Part shown: positions 36,541 through 44,129 of the stretch, piece by piece | Numbering within the stretch: the stretch's first letter is position 1 | Layout of the letters: each line of letters starts with the position of its first letter | DNA from: Cyanobium sp. ATX 6F1 | GTDB lineage: Bacteria; Cyanobacteriota; Cyanobacteriia; PCC-6307; Cyanobiaceae | Length of the DNA stretch: 64,000 nt | Assembly: GCF_024346315.1 (NCBI RefSeq) | Contig: NZ_JAGQCS010000008.1 | Location: 1 to 64,000 of the forward strand | Direction: 5' to 3' | Program-made: the position numbers and the translations under genes | Notes under the pieces: generated by a model | The model's database searches: none | Seen by the model: only the letters and a program-made list of their open reading frames with translations | What the model was told of the DNA's origin: nothing

Positions 36541-36792
36541 TAAAGCCCCACTAAGGGGCGGGGCCCTGAATCAAAAGTTAACGATGGAGCCTTCCCAGAA
36601 AACCCAGGCCATCTCACACCCATGGCGTCGAACCCGGGTTGTTCTTAACATTTTATTCTGTTTTAAGTTTTGTTGGTGGCGGTCCCTGTCCCCGCGGGAC
36701 AGGGCAAGAGAACTGAAAGAGTCCCTCTCAAGTGGCTGGAACAACCCTCGTTCCCATCACTGCGTCACCACCACTCCATTCTCTCCTCCCCC
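36541..36792 (+). promoter_or_regulatory. Upstream region of cpeBA copy 1 with a perfect hairpin
   Basis: AT-rich block around 36645-36675 (TTTTATTCTGTTTTAAG) that could hold the promoter, followed by a perfect nine-base inverted repeat CCCTGTCCC/GGGACAGGG with a three-base loop at 36684-36704, 89 bases before the cpeB ATG. No run of T follows the hairpin, so it is more likely a leader structure than a terminator. Confidence 0.5.
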
Positions 36793-37353
36793 ATGCTCGA
36801 CGCCTTCTCCCGCGCTGTTGTCAGCGCTGACGCCAAGACAGCCACCATCGGTGGTGCCGAACTGGCCGCCCTGCGCCAATACGTGGCTAATGGCAACAAG
36901 CGCCTTGATGCCGTCAACGCGATTGCCAGCAACGCCAGCTGCATCGTTTCCGACGCCGTGTCAGGCATGATCTGCGAAAACACCGGTCTGATCCAGGCTG
37001 GTGGCAACTGCTACCCCAACCGCCGCATGGCCTCCTGCCTGCGTGATGGTGAAATCGTTCTTCGCTACATCTCCTACGCCCTGCTGGCCGGCGATGCCTC
37101 CGTCCTCGACGACCGCTGCCTCAACGGCCTCAAGGAAACCTACATCGCTCTGGGTGTGCCCCTGCAATCCACTGGTCGGGCCGTGGCGATCATGAAGGCC
37201 TCCTCCTGTGCTCACATCAGCGAGACCAACACCAGCGGCACCAATCCAGACGAAACCCGTTTCAACAAGATGCAAACCATCCAGGGCGACTGCTCGGCTG
37301 TGGTTTCAGAAGCGGCCAGCTACTTCGATCGCGTCATCAGCGCACTCGGCTGA
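36793..37353 (+). CDS. cpeB: Phycoerythrin I beta subunit, copy 1
   Basis: Light-harvesting subunit of phycoerythrin, carrying bilins at Cys82, the doubly linked Cys50/Cys61 pair and Cys167 in this numbering. All sites are present: [29 protein letters not shown] and [16 protein letters not shown]. Length 186 residues. The conserved Asn72 (GGNCY), methylated in beta subunits, is present. The start follows a C-rich leader; cpeA follows after 54 bases. Base-identical to the second copy at 43020. Confidence 0.97.
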
Positions 37354-37407
37354 TTCCCTCCCGTCTCTGACTGATCCTTCTCCAACCCATTCGTTTCAAA
37401 GTCTCCA

Positions 37408-37902
37408 ATGAAATCTGTTGTCACCACCGTCGTCACAGCTGCTGACGCCGCCGGTCGTTTCCCCACCCAGTCCGACCTGGAAGCGGTCCAAGGTTCAATC
37501 CAGCGTTCTGCCGCTCGTCTGGAAGCCGCTGAAAAGCTCGCTGCCGGGCTTGACAAAGTTGTCCAGGAAGCTGGCGATGCTGTCTTCAAGAAGTACCCCT
37601 ACCTCAAGCAGTCGGGCGAAGCTGCTAGCAACCAAATCAAAACCGACAAGTGCTACCGCGATATCGCTCACTACATGCGTCTGATCAACTACTCCTTGGT
37701 GGTTGGCGGCACCGGCCCGATTGATGAGTGGGGCATTGCCGGCGCCCGTGAGGTCTACCGCACCCTCAATCTGCCCACCGCAGCTTATGTGGAGGCCTTC
37801 TCCTACACCCGTGAGCGCGCTTGCGCACCGCGCGACATGAGCCCTGAAGCCGCCAAGGAATTCAAGGCTCTGCTCTCCTATGTGATCGAGTCACTCTCCT
37901 GA
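37408..37902 (+). CDS. cpeA: Phycoerythrin I alpha subunit, copy 1
   Basis: Alpha subunit of phycoerythrin with bilin sites Cys82 ([16 protein letters not shown]) and Cys139 ([18 protein letters not shown]). 164 residues, typical length. Pairs with CpeB to form hexameric discs. Base-identical to 43635-44129. A strong terminator follows 42 bases after the stop. Confidence 0.97.
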
Positions 37903-37943
37903 TCACAGCGATCCTTCTCAGCGGCCTCTAGCCTGTCTGCACT

Positions 37944-37968
37944 GCGGCCCCCATGGGGCCGCTTTTTT
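37944..37968 (+). terminator. Terminator of cpeBA copy 1
   Basis: Perfect GCGGCCCC/GGGGCCGC stem with a three-base loop followed by six T. It is unrelated in sequence to the terminator after copy 2. Confidence 0.9.
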
Positions 37969-42509: not shown

Positions 42510-42711
42510 TCAACTGGTCAACCCCCCGAATCTCCGGATGCTCGTTCAGGTCTCGGTCAACCTTGGCCTTGGGAAGCTTCAGCTTGTGCCCCATGCTGAT
42601 CAAGTCCTGCACAAGCCGCTGCCGGTACGCCTGCAGGTCCTCGATGGCAAGCTCAAGCTCTACCTGCCCGTCGGAACTCATTGCGGAGAGGTCGCTGAGG
42701 TCTGTCATCAA
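42418..42711 (-). CDS. Small conserved-looking protein, antisense to the end of cpeY
   Basis: A 97-residue protein with charged helices: GQVELELAIEDLQAYRQRL, VQDLISMGHKLKLPKAKVDRDL and a C-terminal LISQLTQQHGD. The helical regularity supports a real gene, but the last 30 residues lie over cpeY on the opposite strand, so the coding sequence may be partly a shadow. Start is ATG at 42711 or the second ATG next to it. Confidence 0.55.
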   Translation of the reverse strand: MMTDLSDLSAMSSDGQVELELAIEDLQAYRQRLVQDLISMGHKLKLPKAKVDRDLNEHPEIRGVDQLISQLTQQHGDSASPAGQPADPHRSGTLPEG

Positions 42712-43019
42712 TCATTCCAATGGGCTTGTCCTGCCCATCCTCCATCCTGAGCCCGGCCTGCGGACGGCTGCTTGTTACGAAATCCTATGAGTCCCCACAC
42801 TCAGGTCCAGGGGGAGCTTCTGAGATTTATGTTCAGTGAGCGATAAAGACGCACTGGTCCAACAAGGCTAGAAACCTTGCTGGCCACAGGGATTGCTCCA
42901 CGCCTTGGCCTGTTGACATGTCGGATTCGGCACCCAAACAGCTGAGCATCGCAAGTATTCCTCACCAAGGCCAAACCCGCTCGTCTTGTCGCGACTGAGA
43001 TCTCCCTCTTCAGGAACCC
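42712..43019 (+). promoter_or_regulatory. Upstream region of cpeBA copy 2
   Basis: About 300 bases with no supported gene, unrelated in sequence to the upstream region of copy 1. It contains a small hairpin CAAGG...CCTTG near 42867-42883 and ends with CAGGAACCC before the cpeB ATG. Presumed promoter and leader of the second cpeBA and the linker operon. Confidence 0.5.
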
Positions 43020-43580
43020 ATGCTCGACGCCTTCTCCCGCGCTGTTGTCAGCGCTGACGCCAAGACAGCCACCATCGGTGGTGCCGAACTGGCCGCCCTG
43101 CGCCAATACGTGGCTAATGGCAACAAGCGCCTTGATGCCGTCAACGCGATTGCCAGCAACGCCAGCTGCATCGTTTCCGACGCCGTGTCAGGCATGATCT
43201 GCGAAAACACCGGTCTGATCCAGGCTGGTGGCAACTGCTACCCCAACCGCCGCATGGCCTCCTGCCTGCGTGATGGTGAAATCGTTCTTCGCTACATCTC
43301 CTACGCCCTGCTGGCCGGCGATGCCTCCGTCCTCGACGACCGCTGCCTCAACGGCCTCAAGGAAACCTACATCGCTCTGGGTGTGCCCCTGCAATCCACT
43401 GGTCGGGCCGTGGCGATCATGAAGGCCTCCTCCTGTGCTCACATCAGCGAGACCAACACCAGCGGCACCAATCCAGACGAAACCCGTTTCAACAAGATGC
43501 AAACCATCCAGGGCGACTGCTCGGCTGTGGTTTCAGAAGCGGCCAGCTACTTCGATCGCGTCATCAGCGCACTCGGCTGA
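43020..43580 (+). CDS. cpeB: Phycoerythrin I beta subunit, copy 2
   Basis: Encodes exactly the same 186-residue protein as the copy at 36793, with all bilin cysteines (50/61, 82, 167). Unlike copy 1 it is followed, beyond cpeA, by the cpeC-D-E linker genes, so this copy is the one positioned as the head of the operon. Its leader differs from copy 1 and could respond to different signals. Confidence 0.97.
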
Positions 43581-43634
43581 TTCCCTCCCGTCTCTGACTG
43601 ATCCTTCTCCAACCCATTCGTTTCAAAGTCTCCA

Positions 43635-44129
43635 ATGAAATCTGTTGTCACCACCGTCGTCACAGCTGCTGACGCCGCCGGTCGTTTCCCCACCCAGTCC
43701 GACCTGGAAGCGGTCCAAGGTTCAATCCAGCGTTCTGCCGCTCGTCTGGAAGCCGCTGAAAAGCTCGCTGCCGGGCTTGACAAAGTTGTCCAGGAAGCTG
43801 GCGATGCTGTCTTCAAGAAGTACCCCTACCTCAAGCAGTCGGGCGAAGCTGCTAGCAACCAAATCAAAACCGACAAGTGCTACCGCGATATCGCTCACTA
43901 CATGCGTCTGATCAACTACTCCTTGGTGGTTGGCGGCACCGGCCCGATTGATGAGTGGGGCATTGCCGGCGCCCGTGAGGTCTACCGCACCCTCAATCTG
44001 CCCACCGCAGCTTATGTGGAGGCCTTCTCCTACACCCGTGAGCGCGCTTGCGCACCGCGCGACATGAGCCCTGAAGCCGCCAAGGAATTCAAGGCTCTGC
44101 TCTCCTATGTGATCGAGTCACTCTCCTGA
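43635..44129 (+). CDS. cpeA: Phycoerythrin I alpha subunit, copy 2
   Basis: Identical to the alpha subunit at 37408 (164 residues, Cys82 and Cys139). Separated from the upstream cpeB by the same 54-base spacer. A terminator-like hairpin follows within 30 bases, then cpeC. Confidence 0.97.

Follow-up and report, generated by a model that had tools for sequence, protein, structure and literature searches.

Why would a genome keep two copies of an operon that are identical to the last base, when the sequences on either side of them bear no resemblance to each other? The question is raised by a stretch of 64,000 nucleotides from the cyanobacterium Cyanobium sp. ATX 6F1 (contig NZ_JAGQCS010000008.1, positions 1 to 64,000 of the forward strand; hereafter the window), in which the phycoerythrin I operon cpeBA occurs twice, at 36790-37902 and at 43017-44129, both on the plus strand. 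From the sequence comparisons presented here we conclude that the pair very probably evolves in concert, best explained by gene conversion that followed an old duplication and was limited to the homology that remained. A higher dosage from two promoters appears to be the likeliest function. We assign this reading a probability of about 0.88.

Two cpeBA operons within and between genomes

Direct comparison of the two copies gave 0 mismatches over 1,113 bases. Each copy is a two-gene operon in which a 54-base spacer separates cpeB from cpeA (cpeB1 36793-37353, spacer 37354-37407 and cpeA1 37408-37902 in copy 1; cpeB2 43020-43580, spacer 43581-43634 and cpeA2 43635-44129 in copy 2), and the two lie 6.2 kb apart in direct orientation. 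The identical unit begins with CCC-ATG and ends with TGA, the stop codon of cpeA, and exact identity extends 0 bases beyond it on either side. A first-pass annotation, made from the sequence alone, had described this identity, spacer included, with edges three bases before the ATG and at the cpeA stop, and all of it was confirmed. Not a single one of 259 synonymous sites or 54 spacer bases differs, so that synonymous and non-coding positions are homogenised as well.

The products of the unit identify it as cpeBA, since both score above the curated NCBIfam cut-offs (CpeB, NF058508, 333 bits with a cut-off of 275; CpeA, NF058506, 289.3 bits with a cut-off of 225). Copy 2 was also considered as a diverged phycoerythrin II operon, mpeBA, and rejected: it does not differ from copy 1, its products pass the CpeB and CpeA models, and the genome has no further match at E <= 1e-60. 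When the 17 contigs of the genome (2,964,692 bases) were searched at the DNA level, the two full-length places were returned, along with one match of 102 bases and 77% identity elsewhere.

A CpeB-like match at E <= 1e-70 was present in 167 of 400 genomes sampled from the family. Two CpeB-like places, with 88% identity or more, occurred in three of the 167, namely the window genome, Synechococcus sp. SynAce01 and a genome labelled G264, a count from which draft assemblies may conceal further pairs. The other second CpeB matches, among the matches listed, had 66-70% identity, as expected for MpeB. SynAce01 is the closest comparator and holds both copies in the same two neighbourhoods and in the same gene order. 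Its copy 1 precedes a HEAT-repeat gene in what we take to be the cpeZ position, whereas before its copy 2 lie a CpeY-like gene and a small gene on the minus strand, and after it the linker genes. By gene order and by the 5' flanks described below, both copies therefore stand at orthologous positions in the two genomes, as expected of a duplication that predates their split.

The coding units tell a different story from the positions. By the Nei-Gojobori method, synonymous divergence (dS) is 0 over 259 synonymous sites in the window pair, with a 95% upper bound of about 0.0115 differences per synonymous site, and 0.049 in the SynAce01 pair (12 differences at 255 synonymous sites and 0 nonsynonymous ones, leaving the CpeB and CpeA proteins identical). 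The SynAce01 spacers differ by one substitution and a one-base indel. Between the genomes, in contrast, each of the four cross pairs has a dS of 0.469, with 89.5 synonymous differences at 257 sites and 27.5 nonsynonymous differences, and the spacers differ too. If the window copies had been independent since the split, the chance of finding 0 differences at 259 sites would be about 5e-49 (at a proportion of synonymous differences, pS, of 0.349). Paralogues within a genome are thus closer than orthologues between genomes. A tree of 20 rows agrees, joining the copies by genome, with support of 100/100 for the SynAce01 pair and 100/100 for all four, the window pair being identical. Furthermore, CpeB has 184 residues in both SynAce01 copies and 186 in the other 29 of 31 units, which indicates a two-codon loss common to both SynAce01 copies.

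The first-pass annotation had suggested comparing related genomes to see whether the copies track each other, and in SynAce01 they do. It had also proposed either gene conversion or selection acting on the coding unit. The first half of this proposal is supported. Selection on the proteins alone is insufficient, because synonymous sites and the spacer, which are the same in both window copies, differ from one genome to the other. Assuming steady rates, the last full homogenisation in SynAce01 may date back roughly a tenth of the time since the split, and the one in the window genome would be more recent.

Edges of the identical unit and its neighbourhood

Flank similarity was expressed as a z score against shuffled sequence, using 150-base 5' flanks and 110-base 3' flanks. 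The 5' flank of window copy 1 matches that of SynAce01 copy 1 (74% identity, z 27.9), and the 5' flank of window copy 2 matches that of SynAce01 copy 2 (68% identity, z 22.8). The four comparisons across positions in the two genomes gave no similarity, with z from -1.5 to -0.7; window copy 1 scored -1.5 with SynAce01 copy 2 and -1.0 with window copy 2, and window copy 2 scored -0.7 with SynAce01 copy 1. These flank comparisons and alignments delimit a putative promoter and leader region upstream of each copy on the plus strand. The first, at 36644-36789, is conserved with SynAce01 copy 1 only; the second, at 42770-43016, is conserved with SynAce01 copy 2 only and starts with a 25-base exact block (42770-42794). 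Identity between the copies begins 3 bases ahead of the ATG in the window and in G264, and 5 bases ahead of it in SynAce01. Such unrelated upstream regions, each conserved by position, place the 5' edge of conversion just before the start codon.

The 3' edge behaves differently. Identity ends at the stop codon in the window, and in SynAce01 it continues, at a lower level, for about 83 bases, past the terminator. The two 3' flanks in the window resemble each other no more than shuffled sequence does (z 0.5), which, with the z of -1.0 on the 5' side, bears out the earlier description of the flanks as unrelated. At copy 1 of the window, the 3' flank is similar to those of both SynAce01 copies (z 9.8 and 6.3), and at copy 2 it is similar to neither (z 1.1 with copy 1 and 1.6 with copy 2). 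The 3' edge has thus moved, and the 5' edge has remained next to the start codon. Both window flanks contain a GC-rich, terminator-like hairpin followed by a T-run, at 37944-37968 after copy 1 and at 44159-44183 after copy 2, on the plus strand.

Conversion ends where homology runs out, so that sharp edges are expected once the flanks have ceased to be homologous. The first-pass annotation had argued that such edges do not look like a simple tandem duplication. Conversion is supported, as said, but an ordinary duplication remains compatible as the origin of the pair, since decay or rearrangement of the flanks followed by conversion would leave the same edges. The source of the promoters could not be traced: six queries (upstream of both copies and of the linker, in the window and in SynAce01) were set against the regions upstream of cpeB (20) and of the first linker gene (17) in relatives, 37 in all, and the mean z per group ranged from -0.32 to 0.84, with a maximum of 4.7. 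In an Rfam scan of the window, no riboswitch or other match fell in the cpeBA region. The four matches were three tRNAs and a cyanobacterial ribosomal protein S1 leader, the latter at 20212-20293.

Copy 1 is followed on the plus strand by a HEAT-repeat gene (38015-38620; Pfam HEAT_2), presumably in the cpeZ position, a homologue of which follows cpeA in 34 of 38 loci, not all of them from different genomes; the exceptions are L070, L072 and L075, and L068 is cut. Between the copies there follow a HEAT-repeat, bilin-lyase-like gene on the minus strand (38595-39686; Pfam) and, on the plus strand, genes for a divergent phycobiliprotein-like protein (40032-40646; PF00502, E 1.2e-21), a DUF2656 protein (40740-41186; PF10847) and a CpeY-like bilin lyase (41196-42509; NF058505, E 5.7e-128, 427 bits where the curated cut-off is 600). 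The homologue of the phycobiliprotein-like protein in SynAce01, also located between the copies, is 58% identical, and those in other relatives are 37% identical or less. The upstream neighbour of copy 2 is a small minus-strand gene (42418-42711), whose product has no match in Pfam or NCBIfam and which precedes the single cpeB in 27 of the 38 loci. After copy 2, on the plus strand, a region conserved in alignment with SynAce01 (44184-44281) leads to the first rod-linker gene (44282-45202; PF00427 and PF01383).

In both the window and SynAce01, the gene that normally follows cpeA thus stands after copy 1, and the gene that normally precedes cpeB stands before copy 2. The linker block lies on the same strand after copy 2 in these two genomes, and on the opposite strand in single-copy loci such as L039, L045 and L061. 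An inversion with staggered breaks, leaving cpeBA at both ends, and then a second inversion would fit both the gene order and the direction of the linkers.

Weighing concerted evolution

Two further sets of duplicated phycobiliprotein operons bear on the interpretation. In G264, a separate tandem cpeBA pair (locus L036, 6675-9447) has its copies 1,665 bases apart, with one mismatch, which is nonsynonymous. Identity runs from position -3 to about 48 bases past the stop, the 5' flanks are unrelated, and the nearest single-copy relatives are at a dS of about 0.2. The second set concerns the phycocyanin operon cpcBA in 12 relatives, none of them among the genomes with CpeB matches. Within genomes, 35 cpcBA pairs had 0-6 mismatches and an identity of at least 0.9944, and between genomes 461 pairs had an identity of at most 0.9708. 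One genome (G192, locus L212) carries a tandem array with duplicated flanks, which accounts for 15 of the 35 pairs; it has six cpcBA copies with a period of 2,437 bases and 0-1 mismatches between units. Without this array 20 pairs remain; in 17 of them similarity ended within 60 bases upstream of the ATG, and in 19 it ended no more than 150 bases beyond the stop. For five pairs of close genomes, the 5' flanks matched by position with z from 9.9 to 71.2 and across positions with z of at most 3.8. Distant copies can also differ, as in SynAce01, where the first CpcB is 96% and the second 82% identical to that of the window.

Could the two window copies be a product of the assembly, with one consensus placed twice or a single copy in reality? 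The assembly is a draft in which PF00124, the psbA/psbD family, has four matches, three of them fragments that abut contig ends; this indicates that identical photosynthesis genes break this assembly, as they do in short-read assemblies. The fragments lie at the ends of contigs C2, C5 and C8. Exact identity is also the appearance expected of a collapsed repeat. Each copy has its own flanks, however, and both layouts recur in SynAce01, whose chromosome of 2,750,634 bases is complete and, according to its genome report, was assembled from PacBio and Illumina reads (PMC6337551). There the cpeBA units are about 6.3 kb apart and differ at the 12 synonymous sites. Moreover, a direct repeat around one unique loop leaves a single linear path through the assembly graph, an argument from graph structure and not from reads, which makes two copies credible. 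We therefore regard an artefact as highly improbable. A recent simple duplication, too young to have diverged and requiring no conversion, would agree with the lack of any difference between the window copies, and G264 demonstrates that cpeBA alone can duplicate in tandem. It is nevertheless very unlikely, and already largely refuted by the layout common to SynAce01: the pair lies there in the same neighbourhoods with position-specific 5' flanks, at a coding dS of 0.469 between genomes. In a simple recent tandem duplication the flanks would have been duplicated along with the unit and the pair would occur in one lineage only, but here the copies' own flanks were not duplicated and SynAce01 shares the pair.

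That the recurrence of duplication in G264 might extend to this pair, each lineage having separately duplicated or replaced its second copy at the same site, is even more improbable than an artefact. The two genomes have in common the interval, the orientation of the downstream linker genes and the inserted phycobiliprotein-like gene, and at both positions their 5' flanks are orthologous. Least probable of all is that purifying selection at the level of single bases has kept the copies identical since the duplication in the absence of recombination. The SynAce01 pair, with synonymous differences only and identical proteins, is what such selection would leave at the protein level, but the same synonymous sites and the spacer vary freely between genomes, so that base-level constraint cannot hold the copies together. 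This explanation is already refuted, unless the constraint is specific to a strain.

Several points weigh against concerted evolution by gene conversion. Recombination is deduced here from comparison, and the cpeBA case rests on two genomes. A few differences between the window copies could have been collapsed in the draft. The cpcBA genomes were picked for linked cpcB copies with near-equal scores, so that their high within-genome identity is partly a matter of choice, and the five close pairs come from seven genomes and, sharing genomes, are not independent. In a sixth genome pair, that of the cpcBA loci L207 and L215, orthology of the flanks is not clear (z 1.1 to 4.2). Of the eight genomes with two copies, two retain some 5' similarity between their own copies (L213, z 10.1; L216, z 5.4). 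No consensus site emerged from a sigma-70 scan of the two upstream regions of the window pair, a result of little weight where cyanobacterial promoters are concerned.

Concerted evolution by gene conversion remains the explanation that we favour. A duplication would have produced two cpeBA operons before this phycoerythrin cluster split from that of SynAce01. Homologous recombination, a step that we infer, would then have copied one operon onto the other repeatedly, keeping cpeB, spacer and cpeA the same within each lineage and halting where homology ends, that is, just before the start codon on the 5' side and, on the 3' side, at the stop codon here and further downstream in SynAce01. Selection would keep both promoters together with interchangeable subunits, and the gain may be a higher dose of an abundant antenna protein from two promoters, the second of which heads the rod-linker genes. 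The earlier suggestion of one protein in two regulatory contexts holds at the sequence level, where the upstream regions differ and are conserved by position, and the two promoters may be used differently.

Abundant antenna genes of picocyanobacteria can thus evolve in concert while their promoters diverge, giving one protein with two controls and not two proteins. Tentatively, and with a low probability, one may go further. Conversion may have kept copy 2 from becoming a second phycoerythrin and made it a second promoter for the same protein, and, more broadly, the coding units of picocyanobacterial phycobiliproteins may be homogenised with promoters free to specialise. Both cpeBA and cpcBA have been described as phylogenetic and quantitative markers (PMC8914260, PMC10808157). 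When duplicates are homogenised, gene counts are inflated, short-read assemblies break and copy-specific expression is masked. The SynAce01 copies, with their 12 synonymous differences and different spacers, would allow RNA to be measured for each copy.

Relation to known systems

A close parallel is the tufA/tufB pair of Salmonella, 1,185 nucleotides long with 12 differences, for which contiguous conversion tracts, blocked by a large insertion, are reported, and for which the conversion model assumes no passage beyond the ends of the repeated genes (PMC5485169). Like the cpeBA copies, the tuf genes are near-identical, highly expressed units, about 1.1-1.2 kb in length, and their homology does not continue past the gene. 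Unlike here, conversion was measured experimentally, and 762 kb separate the two inversely oriented tuf genes, whereas the cpeBA pair is direct and consists of two-gene operons 6.2 kb apart.

Among phycobiliproteins, two identical cpcB-A operons were reported in blue-green marine Synechococcus (Six et al. 2007, PMC2246261). That case, too, is a duplicated operon with identical copies in the rod gene region, but it concerns phycocyanin in strains lacking phycoerythrin, and here it is phycoerythrin I that is duplicated; the accessible part of that paper does not use the term gene conversion. The cyanobacterial psbA and psbD genes have undergone long-lasting concerted evolution (PMC6053082) and likewise are photosynthesis paralogues closer within than between species, with conserved synteny. 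They are photosystem II genes, and the main text of that report contains neither "cpc" nor "phyco".

The mpeBA operon of phycoerythrin II, which arose from a cpeBA duplication, Types II and IIB retaining a cpeBA copy (PMC6363710), is also a second operon derived from cpeBA. In WH7803 (locus L072) it lies just after the CpeY-like gene, which is the interval of copy 2; the window copy at 43017-44129 corresponds in place to L072 16436-17515, where mpeBA is on the opposite strand. In WH7803, however, the second operon has diverged (66% CpeB-to-MpeB identity), whereas copy 2 is a CpeBA operon identical to copy 1. Searches of the open-licence literature yielded no report of two identical or homogenised cpeBA operons in one genome. 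The way of evolving is therefore already known from tuf, psbA, psbD and the identical cpcBA operons, and it is the cpeBA pair that is newly documented.

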